Of a stretch of DNA of 64,000 nt, positions 2,614 to 12,249 are shown piece by piece. Each line of letters begins with the position of its first letter. The stretch's first letter is position 1. This DNA comes from Bacillota bacterium. GTDB taxonomy: Bacteria > Bacillota > UBA4882 > UBA10575. The notes beneath the pieces were generated by a model. That model made no database searches, was not told where the DNA came from, and saw only the letters and a program-made list of their open reading frames with translations. The stretch covers positions 1 through 64,000 of the forward strand of contig DUQR01000025.1 in NCBI GenBank assembly GCA_012837715.1, given 5' to 3'. A program made the translations under genes and the position numbers.

Positions 2614-3540
2614 TTAGCGTGAGCAGTAACAAATGATCCGTCTTTCCCCTAGCTGGTTATAGACTTGCTCCAGGTGCAGCTCTGCTTCGCCCATCTTGAA
2701 AACGAGGCCGGCCCCAATACTTTTATAGAGCACAAACTCTTCGACCCGCTGATTACTCCCGATTACGCCTCCGGCGTCCACAAAAACAGCAGCGTTTAGC
2801 AGACCCAGAAACGGCAGGTCACTATAGGGGAATAAGGCCCATTGCCGCTCAACTGCGAGAGCCAGTCCCCGGTTTCCGGTCATTTCGTCCTTCCGATACC
2901 CGCGGATCAGATCCGCCAAATCGAAGTAGGGTGTAAGCAACTGCGTCTCTCTGGCGAATCCGAGCCATGGTCTGATCTTCAAATCGCCCAGAATTACCGG
3001 AAGCTTTAGGGTAGCGGTATAATATGAAGCGCCACTTTCCTTCACTTTACCGGCTACAGTCTTTAGCAGCAGCTTAACCTCCCGATCCCAATCAAAATAG
3101 AGTCGTTTACTGTAATCAAGAAAGACCAGTCTGGTTTGGACCCCTGTCCCATCCCGTTCTATTGCTCCGTAGAAAATCCCTCCGGTTAGGCTATGCCCGG
3201 CCGCTATTTGGTAACAGATCCTACCGGTTATTCCTTGTTGATGCGCATACCCCGGCACATACTGGTGCATCCAATACCCATAAAAAAGGCGCCATAGAAA
3301 AGGAGTAGTCTCATAAGAGGCCCCGATATAACTAAGCACTTTATCTCTTCCATAGTCATAGGCGATTCCCAATTGCGGGGTAAAATCACCCCATGGATAA
3401 GCATACTCCACCCCAATCGTGCTCTGATCAAAAGGCAAGATCAGGTGAAACTCAGCCCTCACCGGTAAATAATCGCTTAGCAATAACACCAGCGCCAGTA
3501 AGAAGACGCTCAGCGCCTTGTGAATCATTATTCTCCTCAT
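2614..3540 (-). CDS. Predicted outer-membrane beta-barrel protein (Omp85/surface-antigen-like C-terminus)
   Basis: The 308-residue product has a clear signal peptide (MRRIMIHKALSVFLLALVLL, cleavage after VRA) and then alternating hydrophobic/polar strands rich in Tyr, Trp and Gly. The C-terminal third has LIRGY, a GNRGLALAVERQW strand, a strand with AAVFVDAGGVIG, and KSIGAGLVFK. These resemble the RGY...G...E.R....FvDaG.v...GaG pattern of BamA/TamA-type barrels. No POTRA domains are present. It is the last gene of an operon with a Lol-like ABC transporter, which supports an envelope role. The start has AAGGAGAG six bases upstream. Resemblance to Omp85 is by motif only, so the exact family is uncertain. 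Confidence 0.65.
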   Translation of the reverse strand: MRRIMIHKALSVFLLALVLLLSDYLPVRAEFHLILPFDQSTIGVEYAYPWGDFTPQLGIAYDYGRDKVLSYIGASYETTPFLWRLFYGYWMHQYVPGYAHQQGITGRICYQIAAGHSLTGGIFYGAIERDGTGVQTRLVFLDYSKRLYFDWDREVKLLLKTVAGKVKESGASYYTATLKLPVILGDLKIRPWLGFARETQLLTPYFDLADLIRGYRKDEMTGNRGLALAVERQWALFPYSDLPFLGLLNAAVFVDAGGVIGSNQRVEEFVLYKSIGAGLVFKMGEAELHLEQVYNQLGERRIICYCSR

Positions 3541-3631
3541 TCTCTGCTCTCCTTTGCGCTTTTGCTTCGGAAGACTACATAATTATCCCGTATTTGTTGC
3601 TTACAATTATCCGCAAAACGATCTTCTACAC

Positions 3632-4642
3632 TCAGAATTTAGCTTCAATCTGGAACACATACTCCCGAGCAATGGGGTTTTTCCGCGCCGCGCTGTTTTT
3701 CCCGCCGCCAAAGTTGGTAATGACAATCTCCGGCGTAACCGTGTTGTCGCCAAGATACTTCAGGTTAATGATCCTAATCCAGCCACCGTCTTGAAGATGA
3801 AAGATTTTTTTAATTCCCCATTGCCATCTGCCAAAAAGCCCGGGTTCTCTACCAAGACTGGCAAATAGATAAGGACCCTGTGTATAGTAATACTCCATGA
3901 TGAAGGTAAGATAGGCGCCGGTATATACTCCGCCCAGCAAATATTTGCTAGTTTTTCCCGCAAACTCGGTGTTCATTCCCCCGTGAAGGCTGAGTCCATT
4001 CAAGAGATCCCAAGAAAACTCGGCCCCCCCTTGCCAGTGGTTAACCCCGTCTCGCCAAATATAGGATATAACCGTTTCCCAATCACCGGTCGCCAGCATT
4101 TTCCCTACTCTTAGCCAGCTGGCGCCGGAATGGGCACTTTCCCACGCCGCTCCAGCCACCAGGTCATACGGGGAAAATATAACTTTACTTTCCAGACCCC
4201 AAAAGGCGTCTTCCCTCCCCAGTGGGTAATTGGGGATAAAGGCCAGGCCTTTACCCCAGGTCCAGTCCTTCTTTCCCAGCTCCCATAGGGCTGATCCGGA
4301 GAAACCGCTGATTGTGGCTTGGTCCGTCTCCAGAAGAAAATCGGAAAAATGCCCTGTTATTTTCAGTTCATATTGGCAGGCGCCACGATAACCGGATAAA
4401 CTCAGTCCCATCTTGGTGTCGCTTTCAGTCTCGATCAAAAGTCTTTGCTGAGCAGGGAACTCTGCACTCACCTGATGATAGGCGAATTCAGTCTTGAGCG
4501 CACCGCTGAGCATCTCGACCCCGGCTAAGGCTTGGCTAGCGCTGACCAAGTAACCCCCTACGATCAACGGGAAACAAAGCGCCCCGCGAAGAAGCCACTG
4601 ACCTACTTTGTTTTGATCAATCTTCATCTTTCTCCACGTCAT
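3632..4642 (-). CDS. Predicted outer-membrane beta-barrel protein, unnamed family
   Basis: I do not recognise a named family. The 336-residue protein has a basic N-terminus, a long hydrophobic segment (LLRGALCFPLIVGGYLV) and a likely cleavage after SQALA. It continues as about a dozen short amphipathic segments with aromatic pairs and ends in EAKF. A C-terminal Phe is the usual signature of Gram-negative outer-membrane barrels. It starts 13 bases after the LolA-like gene and precedes a second barrel candidate. A start at 4627 (MKIDQNK) is also possible. I infer an outer-membrane location from the strand pattern, C-terminal Phe and context. Confidence 0.6.
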   Translation of the reverse strand: MTWRKMKIDQNKVGQWLLRGALCFPLIVGGYLVSASQALAGVEMLSGALKTEFAYHQVSAEFPAQQRLLIETESDTKMGLSLSGYRGACQYELKITGHFSDFLLETDQATISGFSGSALWELGKKDWTWGKGLAFIPNYPLGREDAFWGLESKVIFSPYDLVAGAAWESAHSGASWLRVGKMLATGDWETVISYIWRDGVNHWQGGAEFSWDLLNGLSLHGGMNTEFAGKTSKYLLGGVYTGAYLTFIMEYYYTQGPYLFASLGREPGLFGRWQWGIKKIFHLQDGGWIRIINLKYLGDNTVTPEIVITNFGGGKNSAARKNPIAREYVFQIEAKF

Positions 4643-4655
4643 GTTTATACAGCCC

Positions 4656-5411
4656 CTATTCCTTAACCAGAAGCTGAAACTTGCCCATCATTAAAGGATC
4701 AAAGGCCGTCTCCGGCAGTTCCCGCTTTTGAATGGAGAGATAATTCAGCACGGTCCGGCGATCCTTCTCATAAAGCTGGTTCCTAATCTCGATCGTCGCC
4801 ACTTCATGGCCGTTAAGCGATCGGTAATGGTCATAGCGCAATTCCTTTAAAGGTTCACCATGCACAGATAACAAGAGAATCTTCTCCACCACTACCCCGT
4901 TTTTCTCAATCCAAAGCTTGGCCCTTTGATAAGCGGTTTTCCTCTCCAAAGCCTCTAACGCCAATTGATAGTGGGTAGCGGTCTCTTCCATCGCTACTAC
5001 CCGGTAATCATGGAGATAATCAATCCCGACCGTCTCAGCGATCCCGGCTTCGCCAAAGAGCTTTTGCTGCGCGGAGATGCGCAAAGGGCGGTTTAACCCT
5101 TTCTGGTACATCCAAGTATTAGACCCAATGACGAGAAAAGACTGATCTATTAGCCTTTCCGGGCTGATAAAGGTCACCATCTGTTTTTTGGTGGCGTGCA
5201 GATAGACACGGACCTCAGCCGTTTGTTGCGTTTCCCCGTCAAAGGAATCCACCCGTAAGTTCAAAATGAACGAACCGGCGCCTAGACCCTGTCGGGCGTA
5301 GATCTCTTCCAGAATTCCCTTTGGATCTTGGGCTAAAGCTTTGAGCGATAGGCATAACAAAGAGGATACAACCACGCCGACCATTATTCTAATCCTCAGT
5401 CTGACTTTCAT
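4656..5411 (-). CDS. LolA-like outer-membrane lipoprotein-sorting protein
   Basis: The 251-residue product begins at an ATG with GGGGGG upstream. A signal peptide (IMVGVVVSSLLCLSLKALA-Q) is followed by a LolA/LolB-fold type domain: RVYLHATKKQMVTFISPERL, SFLVIGSNTWMYQKGLNRPL and ISAQQKLFGEAG. This is the pattern of COG2834-type lipoprotein-sorting proteins, which carry hydrophobic cargo across the periplasm. It lies between the permease gene and two predicted barrels, so it probably receives substrate from the ABC transporter. No lipobox is visible. The cargo, lipoprotein or lipid, cannot be told from sequence. Confidence 0.8.
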   Translation of the reverse strand: MKVRLRIRIMVGVVVSSLLCLSLKALAQDPKGILEEIYARQGLGAGSFILNLRVDSFDGETQQTAEVRVYLHATKKQMVTFISPERLIDQSFLVIGSNTWMYQKGLNRPLRISAQQKLFGEAGIAETVGIDYLHDYRVVAMEETATHYQLALEALERKTAYQRAKLWIEKNGVVVEKILLLSVHGEPLKELRYDHYRSLNGHEVATIEIRNQLYEKDRRTVLNYLSIQKRELPETAFDPLMMGKFQLLVKE

Positions 5412-5511
5412 GACTAACCCCCCTTTTTTCTTCTCAAATAAAGGGTGTCCCGGACAGACCCGTTCCCATTTCTTTCCCATCAACTTCCCTTCTTCTCTTC
5501 TGTGCCATCCT

Positions 5512-6714
5512 CTACAAATGGCGGAGTACATCCACTACGTTCAGCCGGGCCGCTTTAGTCGCTGGGATAAACGCCGACAACGCAGTGGCGGTTACCACCA
5601 GAATGAAGGGGAGAAGGCCGTTGGTCAGCGCCAGGTCAATATAGAGCGGCACCGGATCACTGATTGAAGGCGGGGTATAAGTAATGCCTCCTTGGTTGAT
5701 CAGATATCCGGCCAGCCATCCTCCAACTACGCCCAGTGTTCCCGCAATCAGGCTGAGGAACAGCCCTTCCAGGCTTAATAAAGCAAAGACCTGACGGCGT
5801 TTGGCGCCGATTGCCCTGACCGAACCGATCTCGCTCATCCTTTCAAAGAAGGCCATGGAAATAATCTCTAGGATGCTGAAGAAGACAATAATAAAGAGGA
5901 CAATCGAGATAAAGAAGAAAATGATCTCGTATAGGCTCCGAACCTGATGGTAGAAGGTGGCCAGATCCAGCCAGCTTTTAATCGTCACTTCGATCCCTTC
6001 CTCCTTAAACCGTTCTTGCAGCCAGGAGATGGTGGCCTCGGTCTGGCTGACCTCCGCTAAACTCACCACAAATTTATCTACACCATCCGTATTCAACATC
6101 CTCTGCGCATAACTGAGGGGTAGCATAATAAAAGCATTGTCCGCATCAGGATTACCCACAGAGAAAGCCCCGGTCACCTGTAGATTACCGGCATTGTACG
6201 CTCCATCCAAAGTGGTGGTCAGCAAGGAAACCCACTCCTCCTCATCCAGACCCAACTTCTGCTTGACTCCTTTCCCAAGAAGGACCCGGTCCACATCGCC
6301 CGCGAAGAGATTACTACCACTTACAATCAGGATATTTTGACTTTGGGCGCTCCCCGGTTCTATCCCCTTTCCTGACACTACCACACTGGACTTTTCAGTC
6401 CCCATAACCCCATAAACCGCCAATTCCGCGGAAGAGCTGATTACCGCCGGATTTTCCGCCAAGATTTCACCTATTTTACTGATTTCTTCTTTGTCTAACA
6501 GATGCCGTTCGTTATCCGTATTCTCCCAATACCCTTCTTTCGCGATCTGTAAATTACCATATTCCATCACCGCCATCATTTCCAAACCTTCGTAGGTGGC
6601 GGTGATATAGCCCTTAACCAAAGATAAAACCATCACACTTATGACGATAATTACTGCGCTCAGGAGCGAACGGCGTTTGTTCCGAAGCACATTACGCCAA
6701 GCGATCTTCCACAT
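5512..6714 (-). CDS. FtsX/LolC/MacB-type ABC transporter permease
   Basis: About 400 residues from MWKIAWRNVLRNKRR, the typical amphipathic start of MacB-superfamily permeases. One transmembrane helix follows (SLLSAVIIVISVMVLSLV), then a ~220-residue extracytoplasmic MacB_PCD-like domain (residues 45-265), then three helices with the conserved FERMSEIGSVRAIGAKR coupling loop. Such permeases extract substrates from the outer leaflet instead of moving solutes through a pore. The start codon overlaps the ATPase gene, showing translational coupling. The next gene encodes a LolA-like carrier, so a LolCDE-like role is the favoured reading. A single permease would act as a homodimer. Confidence 0.85.
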   Translation of the reverse strand: MWKIAWRNVLRNKRRSLLSAVIIVISVMVLSLVKGYITATYEGLEMMAVMEYGNLQIAKEGYWENTDNERHLLDKEEISKIGEILAENPAVISSSAELAVYGVMGTEKSSVVVSGKGIEPGSAQSQNILIVSGSNLFAGDVDRVLLGKGVKQKLGLDEEEWVSLLTTTLDGAYNAGNLQVTGAFSVGNPDADNAFIMLPLSYAQRMLNTDGVDKFVVSLAEVSQTEATISWLQERFKEEGIEVTIKSWLDLATFYHQVRSLYEIIFFFISIVLFIIVFFSILEIISMAFFERMSEIGSVRAIGAKRRQVFALLSLEGLFLSLIAGTLGVVGGWLAGYLINQGGITYTPPSISDPVPLYIDLALTNGLLPFILVVTATALSAFIPATKAARLNVVDVLRHL

Positions 6715-7399
6715 TCTCCACTCCCCCTTGATCTGCAAATACTCCGTCCTTGAGGAGGTAAACCCGGCGTGCGAATTGGTTCAGTGTCAAATCATGGGTC
6801 ACTATAACCACAGCCACCTGGTATTTCCGATTTAGATCCAGCAATAGCCGGATGATCCTCATTCCGTTCTCCGAGTCCAAATTGCCCGTAGGTTCATCCG
6901 CCAGAATTAGCTTTGGTCTAGTGACAAGCGCCCTGGCAATCGCCACCCGCTGTTTCTGTCCGCCTGATAGCTGCGAAGGTAACCTGTTCATCTGTTCCTC
7001 TAAGCCTACCTGCGTCAAAACCTCTTTTACCCGTTTCCGCCGCTCGTGGCGGCCTATTTTTTGGAGTAATAAAGGATACTCCACATTCTCACCAGCCGTT
7101 AGCACCGGAATCAACTCAAAAGACTGAAAGATTAGACCCACCTTATCGCGGCGCATAACCGTTCGTTCGCTGTCCGATAACCTGCTTAGCGGTTGCCGAT
7201 CCAGATAAATTTCGCCTGTTGTTGGTTGGTCGATCCCGGAAAGAAGATTAAGTAAAGTGGTCTTACCACTACCGGAAGGGCCATTGATCATCAGAAAATC
7301 TCCGGTCTCAATCTTAAAATCGACCTTCTTCAAAGCATACACCCGTTCAACCTGGTTCTGGTAGACTTTCTCCACACCTTTCGCCTCTAAAATAGCCAT
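6692..7399 (-). CDS. ABC transporter ATPase, LolD/MacB subfamily
   Basis: The 235-residue nucleotide-binding protein starts at MAILEAKGVEKVY behind AGGAAGGG. Walker A is GPSGSGKTT, the signature is LSGGQKQRVAIARAL, Walker B is LILADEPTGNLD, and the switch histidine lies in VTHD. NLD after Walker B and the short length are typical of LolD/MacB/FtsE-type ATPases. It overlaps the permease gene by about 23 bases. It powers the partner permease in the cytoplasmic membrane. Confidence 0.92.
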   Translation of the reverse strand: MAILEAKGVEKVYQNQVERVYALKKVDFKIETGDFLMINGPSGSGKTTLLNLLSGIDQPTTGEIYLDRQPLSRLSDSERTVMRRDKVGLIFQSFELIPVLTAGENVEYPLLLQKIGRHERRKRVKEVLTQVGLEEQMNRLPSQLSGGQKQRVAIARALVTRPKLILADEPTGNLDSENGMRIIRLLLDLNRKYQVAVVIVTHDLTLNQFARRVYLLKDGVFADQGGVENVEDRLA

Positions 7400-7413
7400 T
7401 TTTTCCCTTCCTC

Positions 7414-8199
7414 TCACTTCAGCTGGTTCAACCATTCCATCGCCCATGGACTTTGGGGATAAATCTCCAGCGCTTTATTAAAACAAGCCCGCGCCTCTTC
7501 TTCCTTTTTCAACTGACCATAGGCCTTTCCGAGCCAGAGATAGGAGAGGAAGAGATCAAACTCATCCTTACTCTCCAAGGCTTTCCGGAGCGCCTCGATC
7601 CCTTTTTCCACACTTCCGCCGCCGATCGCCGGCGCATTCAGGTAATAAACACCCAGCGCAATAAAGGCGGCATAGTTTTTCTTGTCGAGACTGATCGCCT
7701 TATTCAGTAGTTTAACGGCTTGCGGAGCCTTACTCATTGTATAGATGGCGCCGTTATAACTCATCAGCCGCATATAGGAATCGGCCAAAATCCGGTGGGC
7801 GTCGCTAAGGCCCTTGTTCGCTTTCAAAGCCTTCTCCGCCCAACGGCTGCACTCGGTGAAAGCCTGCGCGGCAGCCCGTTTCTCTCCTCTCATCTCCTCC
7901 AGTTCAGCTAGGGTAAACTCGACCATGGCCAACCAGTAATACTGCTCAGCCCCAGTAAGGCGTTGCCCAAAAAACTCCTTCACCGCCAGAAGCTTTTTTT
8001 TGGCCTCCTCCGTCGGCGCCTCCGCATTATAGAAGATCCGGCGCGCAGTTAAGTACCACGCTATCCCCTCTTTTAAGGCATCTTCCTGACCGCCTGGTCC
8101 CATGGCTATTACTGCCTGACAAAAGTAGACAAGCAAACAGAGTAATAGTACGGTAGTAACCACTCTTTTCCGCAAAATCGACCTTCTTTGATTGCCCAT
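7414..8199 (-). CDS. Exported tetratricopeptide-repeat protein heading the Lol-like operon
   Basis: From the ATG at 8199 (AAGGAGGG seven bases upstream) the protein has a basic N-terminus and a hydrophobic signal or anchor segment (VVTTVLLLCLLVYFCQAVIA). About 215 residues of helical repeats follow. At least two clear TPR units are seen near the C-terminus: FLSYLWLGKAYGQLKKEEEA and ARACFNKALEIYPQSPWAME. YYLNAPAIGGGS resembles a motif in some exported TPR proteins. It lies 14 bases before the ABC ATPase, so it is probably a periplasmic scaffold for this transporter. Its specific partner is unknown. Confidence 0.75.
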   Translation of the reverse strand: MGNQRRSILRKRVVTTVLLLCLLVYFCQAVIAMGPGGQEDALKEGIAWYLTARRIFYNAEAPTEEAKKKLLAVKEFFGQRLTGAEQYYWLAMVEFTLAELEEMRGEKRAAAQAFTECSRWAEKALKANKGLSDAHRILADSYMRLMSYNGAIYTMSKAPQAVKLLNKAISLDKKNYAAFIALGVYYLNAPAIGGGSVEKGIEALRKALESKDEFDLFLSYLWLGKAYGQLKKEEEARACFNKALEIYPQSPWAMEWLNQLK

Positions 8200-8289
8200 T
8201 TTCGTTCCCTCCTTCTTTTTACCACCAACCACCATGGTGATGACGTTTTATTCATTATGCACAGAGCCTTCTCTGGCTCTTAGTATATT

Positions 8290-8373
8290 AAAAACGAAGC
8301 CACTCTTCTTCCACTAGAAGATTGAAACTTCTTACGCTATTTGGGATGAGACGCTCTCCTCCTTTCGGAGGAG
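8290..8373 (-). ncRNA. Candidate structured leader, copy 1 (before the Lol-like operon)
   Basis: On the minus strand CTCCTCC-GAAA-GGAGGAG forms a 7-bp hairpin with a GNRA loop (8373-8356). About 45 conserved bases follow, including CCCAAATAGCG and CTAGTGGAAGAAG, then a GAAG...CTTC mini-stem ending in GTTTTT. A second copy at 10829-10913 has the same order and nearly the same length. The copy lies about 90 bases before the TPR gene. A cis-regulatory RNA or attenuator is inferred; I cannot match it to a known class. Confidence 0.45.
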
Positions 8374-8390
8374 GGAGGATCTCAACAAAA

Positions 8391-8414
8391 AAAAGGGGCG
8401 CGCCCGCCCCTTTT
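8391..8414. terminator. Bidirectional terminator after the sensor-kinase operon
   Basis: A 10-bp stem, AAAAGGGGCG/CGCCCCTTTT, with a CGCC loop, flanked by A and T runs on both sides. It ends the minus-strand kinase operon about 125 bases past its last stop codon. It lies in the 303-bp gap 8236-8538, which also holds leader copy 1; I see nothing else there. Confidence 0.8.
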
Positions 8415-8538
8415 CTTTCACTGGCCAATGGTATTTCGCTTCGTTTTTTTAAACTTGAACACTAAAAAGAGAAGCCCCACGCTAGGACAAACAGTGGAGC
8501 AAAATGTGCTTCCGACAAGTACTTACGCCTCTAATCAG

Positions 8539-9576
8539 CTAAAAGTTTACCGTAACCGTAGTTCCTTTGCCTTTTACCGACTCAATCCTTAACTTACCGC
8601 CTATCTCCGTCACCCGTTCCTTCATTCCTTGGAGCCCGTACTGACGGTCCCCGCCGATCTCCGCCTGATCAAACCCCCGCCCATCATCAATGATGCGCAA
8701 AACCCCTTTCCCCGGGGATGAGAGCTCCATCTCCACCCGAACAGATTTGGCCTGGGCATGTTTTACTACATTATTTAGCGCCTCTTGCGCCACACGGTAC
8801 AATGCAGTTTGCACTTTAAGCTTCAGGCTTTCATCAACCCCCTTGAAACTGGTGGCGATCGCCAACTTGTAACGCGACCGAAAAAGCCCGCATAGATTCT
8901 CCAGGGCTTCATAAAACCCGCCTTCCATAACTAGCGGCCGCAATTCATAGACCAAGAGTTCCATCTCTTCCAGGGCCTCGCTGACCATCTCCCGTAAGAT
9001 CTGGGTGGTTCTTTGGAAAGCTTCCGGATCTTTCTTTTGTAAATATTCCAAAGCGCTCAGATGCAAACTGATCCCATAAAGGTTTTGAGAGACGGAGTCA
9101 TGCAACTCCTGGGCAATCCGGGTCCTCTCCGCTAGCACCGCCAACCGCTGATTCTCCTGCTCCAAGCGGAGCCTTGCTCCCCTCTCCTGGGCGTAAACAA
9201 AGAAGAACCCCACCATTACCGAGGCGATTCCTGCGCCTATACTATAGGTCAATCTCCAACCAATAGGGATATGCCGAAAAAAAAGACTGAAGACGGGAAA
9301 AAATATTCCGACACTAACCGGAAAGACCAGCAGGACATTGAACAACGGCCACCTTTGCATCTTGGGGAAGAGGTACTGGGTTACTGTTCCCACCAGCTCA
9401 TTACCGACTGTTAGTAGAAACCCGATTCCCAAACCGAAACCGATTAGCATCAGAAAAGCCCCAACAGTATCAGGAAATCCATACGTAATTAAGATAAAAG
9501 CGATCGTGACCCCTATTCCGATCAGCGCGCCTTTGGCGCCATCGCTCATCAGGGCTGGAAGATCCAACCTTTTCAT
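8539..9576 (-). CDS. NarL/LiaS-type membrane sensor histidine kinase (intact)
   Basis: The 345-residue protein has about four hydrophobic helices in residues 15-128 with no large sensory loop. A short coiled coil follows, then a HisKA_3 dimerisation domain with phosphoacceptor His159 in RIAQELHDSVSQ. The C-terminal HATPase_c domain is complete: N-box EALNNVVKHAQAK, G1 IIDDGRGFD and G2 QYGLQGMKERV. Such kinases normally phosphorylate a LuxR/NarL-type response regulator, but none is encoded next to it. It is the second gene of a two-kinase operon with the paralogue at 9677. The signal is unknown. Confidence 0.9.
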   Translation of the reverse strand: MKRLDLPALMSDGAKGALIGIGVTIAFILITYGFPDTVGAFLMLIGFGLGIGFLLTVGNELVGTVTQYLFPKMQRWPLFNVLLVFPVSVGIFFPVFSLFFRHIPIGWRLTYSIGAGIASVMVGFFFVYAQERGARLRLEQENQRLAVLAERTRIAQELHDSVSQNLYGISLHLSALEYLQKKDPEAFQRTTQILREMVSEALEEMELLVYELRPLVMEGGFYEALENLCGLFRSRYKLAIATSFKGVDESLKLKVQTALYRVAQEALNNVVKHAQAKSVRVEMELSSPGKGVLRIIDDGRGFDQAEIGGDRQYGLQGMKERVTEIGGKLRIESVKGKGTTVTVNF

Positions 9577-9676
9577 CTTTTCCTCCTCACCGGCCTTTCT
9601 GAAAATAGCCGTCTAGCACCTACCCCGCAAGTTATGTAATAATCTAGATAACCGATTAGAACTTTAGGAGAGCGTT

Positions 9677-10723
9677 TCAAAATGTTATCGTAATGGTAGT
9701 TCCCAGACCCGCCTTGGTATCTATTTGCATCCTGCCGTTCATCTCCCCGATCCGCTCCTGAAGATGCCGCCGGGTGTCTTGACCGTTTCGCTCTTCTTCT
9801 CCCGCACCCCCTTGGCCATCATGATAAATCATCAATCTTCCGGAGCCACCACTGGTAATCTCCAACTTTACCTGCACTGTTGAGGCTTGCGCCTGCCGGG
9901 CGATCTTGCTGAGCGCTGCTTGGAAAACTTGATAGAGCCCGGTTTGCACTTTGCCGGAGAGGTTTTCTTCCTGACTCTCAAAATCGGTGATAATCCGCAA
10001 ATTGTATTTGGCGCGGAATACCGTTGCCAGCTCTTCTAAGGCTTCGAACAACCCTTTCCCCATAAAAACCGTTGGCTTTAATTCATAGATCATCAGACGC
10101 ATCTTTGCTTGGATTTCCGCCACGGTCTTTTGCAACCCCCCGATAACTCCAGGTAAATCCTGGGGCTGGTGTTCATTTAGATAATCGATGGCATTCAGAT
10201 GTAAATTCATCCCGAAGAGGTTTTGCACCACCGTATCATGGAGTTCCCGGGCAATCCGGTTCCGTTCTTCCAAGATCGCTAATTCTTTATTTTCCTTTTC
10301 CAAGCGTAGCTTTTCTTTGGTCTCCCAGGTAAAAGCGAAAAACAGCCCGGTCATGGCTGTAAAAATCCCCACCGCCAGACTAAAACGAAAAATATCATAT
10401 GGTTTAAAGCCAAAAGGCTGAAAATAATAGCTAGCGCCATAAAAGACCCCAAAACCCACCATAAAACTGAGGAAAAAATAAAACGGCAGAAAACTGGTTA
10501 ACCCAGGTAATAAAAGAAGAATCAGTTTGGTTAAGTGCTCAATACAAAAGGTCAACGTAAAGCCGATCACCATCCCAAAAGCCGCGGTCTTCAGCCCATC
10601 CAGAAGACTGGTTGGGATCCCGGCCAAGGCCAAGCGAAAGGCAAAACTGATCCCGATGCCAAAAATTGCCCCTTTTCCCGCATCCTTAATGATCTCTTTC
10701 CCACTCAAAGTCACGGGTTTCAT
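9677..10723 (-). CDS. Paralogous HisKA_3 sensor kinase with degenerate ATPase domain
   Basis: It has the same architecture and size (348 residues) as the next kinase: multiple N-terminal helices, then His162 in RIARELHDTVVQN. The ATPase region looks eroded. The N-box Asn is lost (ALSKIARQAQAS instead of ALNNVVKHAQAK), G1 reads YHDGQGGAGEE instead of DDGRGFD, and G2 GLQGM is replaced by RRHLQER. The fold-ending GTTITITF is kept, and the frame is open throughout. The expected product is a membrane protein that could be phosphorylated but probably cannot bind ATP, so it may act as a heterodimer partner or decoy. It is transcribed first, behind leader copy 2. Confidence 0.85.
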   Translation of the reverse strand: MKPVTLSGKEIIKDAGKGAIFGIGISFAFRLALAGIPTSLLDGLKTAAFGMVIGFTLTFCIEHLTKLILLLLPGLTSFLPFYFFLSFMVGFGVFYGASYYFQPFGFKPYDIFRFSLAVGIFTAMTGLFFAFTWETKEKLRLEKENKELAILEERNRIARELHDTVVQNLFGMNLHLNAIDYLNEHQPQDLPGVIGGLQKTVAEIQAKMRLMIYELKPTVFMGKGLFEALEELATVFRAKYNLRIITDFESQEENLSGKVQTGLYQVFQAALSKIARQAQASTVQVKLEITSGGSGRLMIYHDGQGGAGEEERNGQDTRRHLQERIGEMNGRMQIDTKAGLGTTITITF

Positions 10724-10828
10724 TTATCCGGCAGCCTCTCTTTCGGAGTTTAACTATACTCGTTCGCTACTTACCCAGAAGATACCTGTCAGTACAGGCA
10801 TAAAAACTTTTTCCCTCAGCTTAAGTAT

Positions 10829-10913
10829 AAAAAAGATCAAACTTTCCTTCTTCCACTGGAGGATTGATTTTTCCGCGCTATTTGGATGAAACCGTCTCCT
10901 CCTTTCGGAGGAG
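10829..10913 (-). ncRNA. Candidate structured leader, copy 2 (before the kinase pair)
   Basis: On the minus strand the order is CTCCTCC-GAAA-GGAGGAG hairpin (10913-10896), conserved ATCCAAATAGCG and CCAGTGGAAGAAGG blocks, then a possible ATCAA...TTGAT stem ending in CTTTTTT. It lies about 105 bases before the kinase start codon. The match to copy 1 at 8290-8373 is close in order and sequence, with the GNRA hairpin arms identical. A TACAAT just upstream of the hairpin could be a -10 box. The class is not recognised. Confidence 0.45.
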
Positions 10914-11009
10914 ATTGTATTTCTTTGTAAGAAAGCATTAACCCATAAGTTCTTCCTTTTTTGAGCGGATTTGAGCATAATCTAGCAATCTCTACTCCAT
11001 TCTGCCAAA

Positions 11010-11048
11010 AAAAAGCCTTGGTTTCTTATTTTGAAACCAAGGCTTTTT
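11010..11048. terminator. Bidirectional terminator after the iron alcohol dehydrogenase gene
   Basis: A 16-bp perfect stem, AAAAAGCCTTGGTTTC/GAAACCAAGGCTTTTT, with a 7-base loop. The same 16-bp stem recurs at 21528-21566. The 359-bp gap 10724-11082 holds this, leader copy 2, and no visible gene. Confidence 0.85.
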
Positions 11049-11082: not shown

Positions 11083-12249
11083 CTACAAACTCATTCTTAG
11101 GATTGCTAAAACATCTTCTTTATATAGTTTCTTGAAGTTACCCAACGGTCCATTTTTTGTGGCTTTTTCGGCCATTAACTCTAAGTGTTCTTCACCAATG
11201 CTGTAATCTGCCAAGCGGGATGGGGCACCCATACTATTAAACCAGGCTCTAGTGCGTTCGATTCCTTCTAAGGCAATTTCCTTTTCCGATTTTCCTGTTG
11301 GATCCACCTTAAATACGCGCGTTGCATACTGCACAAATTTGCCGAGGCCCGCTTCGCATACATATTTCATCCAATTGGGAAAGATGATGGCCAGGCCCCC
11401 CCCATGGGGGATGTCATAAATGGCACCAAGCTCATGTTGGATTTTATGACTTGCCCAGTCGGTCGCTTTCCCGATCCCCAAGATCCCATTAAAACCAAGG
11501 GTACTGGCGAGCATAATATTAGCCCGTGCCCCATAATCCTGGGGATCTGCGATTACCTTATCACTTTCTTCGATCAGTGTTTGCAAAACCGATTCGGCCA
11601 TACGGTCTTGGATCGGGGTATCGGGCACTTGATCAAAATATTGTTCGTAGACATGGGCGGCAATGTCGACGATTCCATATACGGTGTGCTCTTTCGGCAC
11701 AGTAAAAGTCAATCGCGGATCAAGGATCGAAAACTTTGGTACCACCAGTTGTGAACGGAAGGATAGCTTCTGCTCAGTTTGAGCGTTGGTGATCACGGCG
11801 CTCGCATTCATCTCGGAACCGGTGGCCGCTAAAGTTACCACCACTCCAATCGGGAGCGCCTGCTCCGGCATTTTCCCGCTGGTAAAGATTTCCCACGGAT
11901 CTTCCTGTAAGTAGTAACCCAACGCAATGGTTTTACAGGTGTCAATAACACTGCCCCCACCAACGCCCAGAACAAGATCGATCCCCTTCTCCCGACAAAT
12001 CCCGATCCCTTCTCTCACCTTGGAGATATCGGGATTGGGCTTGATCTCACCTAACTCATAAACGGTAAGCCCGGCTGCTTTTAAGGAAGAAACCACCTGT
12101 TTATAATAAACGTTCTCGTTAAAGGCGCCACCGTAGCTGACCAATAAAATCTTTCTACCAAAAGCGCTAGCCTTCTCACCTACTAACACAATTTGGTCCT
12201 TTCCGAAGATTAGTTCCGTCGTCCGTTGGTAAATAAAGTTCTCCATCAT
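11083..12249 (-). CDS. Iron-containing alcohol dehydrogenase (butanol dehydrogenase/YqhD-like)
   Basis: The 388-residue group III alcohol dehydrogenase has the usual two-part form. The N-terminal nucleotide-binding half includes GVGGGSVIDTCK (residues ~94-105). The C-terminal metal half has histidines in DIAAHVYEQYF, ATDWASHKIQHELGA and DIPHGGGLAIIF. Metal (Fe2+ or Zn2+) and NAD(P)H would reduce short aldehydes to alcohols. It lies 60 bases after the aldolase gene and is probably co-transcribed with the sugar operon. There it could reduce the lactaldehyde or glycolaldehyde released by the aldolase, as FucO does; that link is inference. RBS AGGAGGGTG. Confidence 0.9.
   Translation of the reverse strand: MMENFIYQRTTELIFGKDQIVLVGEKASAFGRKILLVSYGGAFNENVYYKQVVSSLKAAGLTVYELGEIKPNPDISKVREGIGICREKGIDLVLGVGGGSVIDTCKTIALGYYLQEDPWEIFTSGKMPEQALPIGVVVTLAATGSEMNASAVITNAQTEQKLSFRSQLVVPKFSILDPRLTFTVPKEHTVYGIVDIAAHVYEQYFDQVPDTPIQDRMAESVLQTLIEESDKVIADPQDYGARANIMLASTLGFNGILGIGKATDWASHKIQHELGAIYDIPHGGGLAIIFPNWMKYVCEAGLGKFVQYATRVFKVDPTGKSEKEIALEGIERTRAWFNSMGAPSRLADYSIGEEHLELMAEKATKNGPLGNFKKLYKEDVLAILRMSL

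Follow-up and report, generated by a model that had tools for sequence, protein, structure and literature searches.

A probable response-regulator operator-promoter shared by sensor-kinase genes and a Lol-like operon in diderm Firmicutes

A Lol cluster has been described in the Halanaerobiales, where a LolD-like ATPase, a LolC/E-like permease, and a LolA homologue are found together (PMC5007114); the terms "two-component", "response regulator", and "promoter" are absent from the text of that paper. The literature searched contains no description of how diderm Firmicutes regulate the sorting of lipoproteins to an outer membrane, and a search on Hydrogenispora and Halanaerobiales regulators of Lol returned nothing relevant. 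Among signaling systems, the closest are VraSR and LiaFSR (envelope stress in monoderm Firmicutes), which combine a HisKA_3 membrane kinase with a NarL/LuxR-type regulator. Operators of the DegU/NarL type (e.g., that of Listeria DegU) consist of a palindromic promoter site that is recognized by a dimer of a NarL-family protein (PMC9263151).

A cluster related to that of the Halanaerobiales is present in Hydrogenispora-type genomes and is represented in Halonatronum saccharophilum DSM 13868 by its genes for the TPR protein, the ATPase, and the permease, but here it is preceded by a two-component system and a conserved candidate operator. In the window (the whole 64,000-nt stretch of Bacillota contig DUQR01000025.1 that was analyzed), two minus-strand copies of a repeat of ~85 bases start at 10913 and 8373. 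The first (W_kin) precedes a pair of sensor-kinase genes and the second (W_lol) precedes an operon for TPR, LolD-like, FtsX-like, and LolA-like proteins (Table 1). LolD and LolCE are the best NCBIfam models for the ATPase and permease of the window, both below the equivalog cut-offs. LiaS is likewise among the best models for the two kinases, but their scores of 111 and 85 bits lie far under the curated LiaS cut-off of 450. The kinases further differ from those of VraSR and LiaFSR in having multi-TM input domains and in forming a set of two, one of them degenerate, and the system differs in its Lol-like lipoprotein-transport operon in a diderm and its GGAG-based candidate operator. Compared with DegU-type operators, the palindromic site within a promoter is shared, but the half-site sequence is different, and there are three half-sites at a fixed distance from the -10 box. 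The comparative evidence below suggests, at a probability of about 0.77, that the two copies are promoter-operator modules in the DNA that are bound by a NarL/VraR-type response regulator and drive the kinase genes and the Lol-like operon. The operator and its regulon appear to be undescribed, whereas the kind of system is textbook.

Table 1. Coordinates of the two elements, their parts, and the neighboring genes and terminators in the window.
Feature	Position	Strand	Basis
W_kin operator dyad (candidate), CTCCTCC-GAAA-GGAGGAG (half-sites HS1, HS2)	10896..10913	-	sequence; dyad kept in 15 aligned copies, W4 centre variable
W_kin HS3, third degenerate half-site, CATCCAAATAG (relatives: CTCCTnCTTTT)	10878..10888	-	alignment A3
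W_kin TCAATCCTCCAGTGGAAGAAG block; AAGAAG 10852-10847 at -35 position (most relatives GATG/ATGAAG)	10847..10867	-	alignment
W_kin -10 box TATACT; 66 nt after dyad, 17 nt after -35-position hexamer	10824..10829	-	sequence comparison
W_lol operator dyad (candidate), CTCCTCC-GAAA-GGAGGAG	8356..8373	-	sequence
W_lol third degenerate half-site, CATCCCAAATAG	8337..8348	-	alignment
W_lol TCAATCTTCTAGTGGAAGAAG block; AAGAAG 8310-8305 at -35 position	8305..8325	-	alignment
W_lol -10 box TATACT; 68 nt after dyad	8282..8287	-	sequence comparison
Sensor kinase 1, multi-TM, HisKA_3, degenerate ATPase domain	9677..10723	-	Pfam, NCBIfam, sequence
Sensor kinase 2, multi-TM, HisKA_3 + HATPase_c	8539..9576	-	Pfam; NCBIfam LiaS/MctS/NarQ-like below cut-off
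TPR protein, first gene of Lol-like operon	7414..8199	-	Pfam
LolD-like ABC ATPase	6692..7447	-	Pfam; best NCBIfam model LolD, below cut-off
LolCE/FtsX-like permease	5512..6738	-	Pfam; best NCBIfam model LolCE, below cut-off
LolA-like outer-membrane lipoprotein-sorting protein	4656..5531	-	PF17131 (LolA_like) above gathering score
Intrinsic terminator of kinase operon (AAAAGGGGCGGGCGCGCCCCTTTTTTTT); ends 13 nt before W_lol	8387..8414	-	sequence; fold -19.7 kcal/mol
Intrinsic terminator of preceding operon; 93 nt before W_kin	11007..11048	-	sequence; fold -20.7 kcal/mol

Both window copies open with the same dyad, which is followed by AAATAGCG, TCAATCyTCyAGTGGAAGAAG, and a T-run. An earlier sequence-only reading had reported this repeat, with its GNRA hairpin, linkers, and T-run, and had given its distances to the start codons; the sequence bears out the former and the latter are correct. 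From the dyad to three bases beyond TATACT, the copies agree at 70 of the 95 aligned columns (74%, compared with a mean of 30% after shuffling), and the identity stops at TATACT. Because both flanks are at the shuffled level (34% over the 80 nt upstream and 32% between the element and the start codons), and because no other convincing copy was found when the 2.4 Mb of the same genome were searched with the profile and by BLAST with the element (which otherwise gave only short matches), the similarity is genuine, with sharp boundaries. The combined pattern AAATAGCG..TCAATCnTC was found twice against a chance expectation of 0, while the CTCCGAAAGGAG core alone is unremarkable (4 occurrences versus 6.6 expected when up to 2 mismatches are allowed). 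The leaders that follow the -10 boxes (8282-8200 and 10824-10724, minus strand) each carry a small hairpin (GAGCC-AGAGAA-GGCTC and CCTGT-ACTG-ACAGG), the sequences of which are unrelated.

Searching 29 genomes of the class by homology to the kinase, TPR, and regulator genes yielded 15 alignable copies in 11 genomes, those of the window included. The profile built from these copies (R1) replaced a generic pattern of dyad and -10 box, which was too unspecific across the 29 genomes. The profile added copies ahead of the LolD-like gene in three genomes (G024, G028, and G225), ahead of the TPR gene in G020, and, in Halonatronum, ahead of the regulator gene as well as the TPR gene. The two Halonatronum copies are at L127:9886-9969 and 11715-11803, and their -10 boxes read TATAAT and TACAAT. 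The relatives comprise Hydrogenispora-type genomes and Halanaerobiales, and the element mostly stands before an operon for a NarL/VraR-type response regulator and a HisKA_3 kinase or before a TPR-LolD-FtsX-LolA operon; it directly precedes the regulator gene in G012, G001, G010, G020, G025, and Halonatronum. BLAST with the element alone gave scattered short matches in other genomes; the matches in G010 and G004 turned out to belong to the element. The pattern TCAAYCYYN{1,2}AGTGGARG was discarded, as its matches are true only in the window genome (G000) and G012 and those in G010:C30 and G028 look coding.

Three parts recur across the 15 copies: a dyad of the form CTCCTnC-WWWW-GnnGGAG, whose four central bases are mostly A or T; GATG or an equivalent word where the -35 would lie; and a -10 box of the TATAAT, TATACT, or TATAGT type. 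The promoter part usually reads ATGAAG-17-TATAAT in the relatives and AAGAAG-17-TATACT in the window copies. A third half-site lies some nucleotides beyond the dyad in the aligned copies and is degenerate in the window. The -10 box, of sigma-70 type, is held at a constrained distance from the dyad half-sites, with a gap of 66-69 nt in 14 of the 15 aligned copies and in the copies checked later, including both from Halonatronum. The exception is G025, with a gap of 45 nt (22 nt, or about two helical turns, shorter). In shuffled sequences this spacing is reached in 0.37 of 15 copies, with a maximum of 4 in 2000 shuffles. The centre of the dyad varies among the aligned copies (GAAA, TTTC, AAAA, TTTT, CAAA, or TTGC), which fits a double-stranded site. 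A generic promoter scan did not list the W_kin and W_lol promoters, the -35 sequences of which are far from consensus. A promoter-like pair (TTGGCA-18-TAGATT) is present upstream of W_kin at 11008-10979, and such pairs are no commoner there than expected by chance.

The repeat in the window had been taken by the sequence-only reading for a shared cis-acting RNA, riboswitch-like or attenuating, that links envelope transport with sensor kinases. The idea of a shared cis-acting element that ties the kinase pair to the Lol-like operon holds; homologues were found elsewhere (the aligned copies and those added by the profile), and this link between the two operons is kept in other genomes. A leader RNA, in which ligand sensing by a GNRA hairpin and conserved linkers would control a terminator just ahead of the genes, is nevertheless a very improbable account of it. 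Both window copies do fold well (z of -2.5 and -3.7) and have the CCGAAAGG loop and a weak stem followed by T-runs, but a GNRA loop is found in only 3 of 15 copies (TTTT or TTTC being more frequent), the inner part of the stem is disrupted in 7 of 15, and a T-run of at least 5 precedes the -10 box in only 4 of 15. Compensating changes, which would be expected of a conserved RNA stem, are lacking among the 15 copies, where none of the 7 pairs is changed on both sides and covariation does not exceed that of shuffles. The proposed terminator stem at the 3' end of each copy is also weak: the folding energies of the 45 nt ahead of TATACT are only -5.4 and -11.8 kcal/mol, the terminator scan listed no minus-strand terminator there, and the T-run abuts the TATACT box, which had been overlooked. 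In the window copies, conservation does not extend past the -10 box, and no Rfam match reaches the gathering score (the best, at E 0.044, is an unrelated sRNA that overlaps the upstream terminator). Additionally, because the terminator of the kinase operon ends just before W_lol, no promoter fits upstream of this copy. In G012, G001, and Halonatronum, ~30-40 nt separate the -10 box from the start codon of the regulator gene. Comparison of the sequences thus indicates that transcription starts downstream of the element, an outcome that the sequence-only reading had itself named as refuting the RNA; the element would then lie upstream of the transcript and not within it. If the operator reading is right, it shows that an apparently perfect GNRA hairpin may turn out to be an ordinary operator in DNA.

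A role in termination deserves separate consideration, as the second and third half-sites of some relatives could themselves form a hairpin. The element might be a conserved terminator, or an alternative-hairpin attenuator, of the upstream gene, in which HS2:HS3 (AAAAGTAGGAG-N6-CTCCTACTTTTTT) stops read-through, HS1:HS2 would relieve it, and the promoter merely follows. Perfect terminator-like HS2-HS3 sequences are indeed found in five cases (the regulator copies of G012, G001, and G020, and those of G225 and Halonatronum), and in G225 a stretch of ~80 bp that includes the terminator-like dyad is duplicated (L196 around 1440-1530 and L114:5250-5330), one of the two copies following a rex-like gene and lacking the promoter part. 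This reading is nonetheless unlikely as a general explanation: no U-run follows HS3 in the window copies or in those before the G012 TPR, G001 ABC, G010 regulator, and G025 regulator genes; the distance from dyad to -10 box is fixed, which termination does not need; and the upstream genes are unrelated, yet the same two operons lie downstream of similar elements. For the distant copies, part of the HS2-HS3 conservation may serve termination, since HS2-HS3 there also looks like an intrinsic terminator. In the window, termination is unlikely to be a retained function because the HS2-HS3 stem with a U-run is lacking and clear, separate intrinsic terminators lie upstream of both elements. An improbable extension of these observations would be a bifunctional element that acts as an operator in DNA and, in read-through RNA, forms mutually exclusive hairpins (HS1:HS2 versus HS2:HS3 with a U-run), so that it both insulates and activates the promoter; the window copies would then have kept the operator, lost the terminator, and been retuned to a swapped-in regulator.

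The candidate for the protein that reads the operator is a response regulator of a tight NarL/LuxR subfamily, one member of which is carried by the element-bearing genomes of the family. It has the receiver (PF00072) and GerE (PF00196) domains of a VraR-like regulator, and VraR is its nearest solved structure (best PDB match E 6e-50). Within the family, the element is present in all 9 genomes with the regulator (E <= 1e-12) and in none of the 7 without it (best E 0.003), a co-occurrence with a Fisher probability of 8.7e-5, uncorrected for phylogeny. Three genomes (G022, G024, and G028, the last only 72% complete) have element-like copies and no regulator passing the strict threshold. The sole regulator of this subfamily in the window genome is an orphan (G000:C31:41458-42078; L078:5459-6079) on a different contig from the kinases. 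It lies downstream of a GAPDH gene on contig 31, and the regulator gene has the same position in G004, G006, and G007, where the kinase, the element, and the Lol operon follow it. The orphan is 93% identical to the regulator of G006, while the kinases and Lol genes of the window are of the kind found in G012 and G001 (64-78% identical to G012). The inner bases of the window dyads are GGAGGAG, as in G004 and G010, and not GTAGGAG, as in G012, G020, and Halonatronum, which is consistent with a regulator swap in the window genome and with operator inner bases that track the regulator type, a pattern that in so few genomes is suggestive only.

A different protein could bind the same promoter-operator, with this response regulator no more than a co-inherited neighbor. 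The lack of linkage between regulator and kinases in the window genome leaves room for such a protein, as does the fact that we infer the binding of the regulator to the dyad. It is a rather doubtful reading, set against the coincidence of element and regulator subfamily across the family, the frequent position of the element directly before the regulator gene, and the agreement of the inner operator bases with the regulator type.

If the NarL/VraR-type regulator does bind the operator, the HisKA_3 kinases would sense an envelope cue, presumably envelope or lipoprotein-transport stress, and phosphorylate the regulator, a dimer of which would bind the GGAG-type half-sites of the dyad ~70-90 bp upstream of the start site, with a further protomer or dimer on the third half-site. 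The bound regulator would be expected to activate, rather than repress, a promoter of the vegetative type, whose -10 (TATACT) is good and whose -35 is poor. In this way the regulator may turn on the kinase (or regulator-kinase) genes, as feedback, together with the TPR-LolD-FtsX-LolA operon. Such a circuit would provide the Lol-like cluster with a concrete regulator, target promoters, and a candidate binding site that Hydrogenispora-type bacteria share with a cultured representative of the Halanaerobiales, and would tie envelope-stress-type signaling to lipoprotein sorting in diderm Firmicutes.

The two kinases of the window are not equivalent. Kinase 1 keeps the His-box of HisKA_3, and the N- and G-boxes of its ATPase domain are degenerate (QAALSKIARQ versus QEALNNVVKH, and HDGQGG versus DDGRGF, in kinases 1 and 2). 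Judging from these motifs, kinase 1 is probably a pseudokinase and may work as the partner of kinase 2, which is intact. The G012 counterpart of kinase 1 ends early, as an ORF of about 254 aa. At the other end of the locus, two genes downstream of the LolA-like gene (2614-4642, minus strand) have no Pfam match and probably encode envelope proteins; their counterparts occupy the same place in G012, as does at least one in G001.

Element-like sequences also occur before genes of other types. In G022 and, less strongly, in G025, the profile also places a copy before a gene for DsbD_2, a cytochrome c biogenesis transmembrane protein (L110:4370-4460 and L094:7692-7786), and these genes are possible further members of the regulon. 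G009 and G014 additionally have weak but conserved element-like sites (L112:5585-5672 and L113:5515-5601) ahead of a gene that looks like one for a sugar ABC solute-binding protein.
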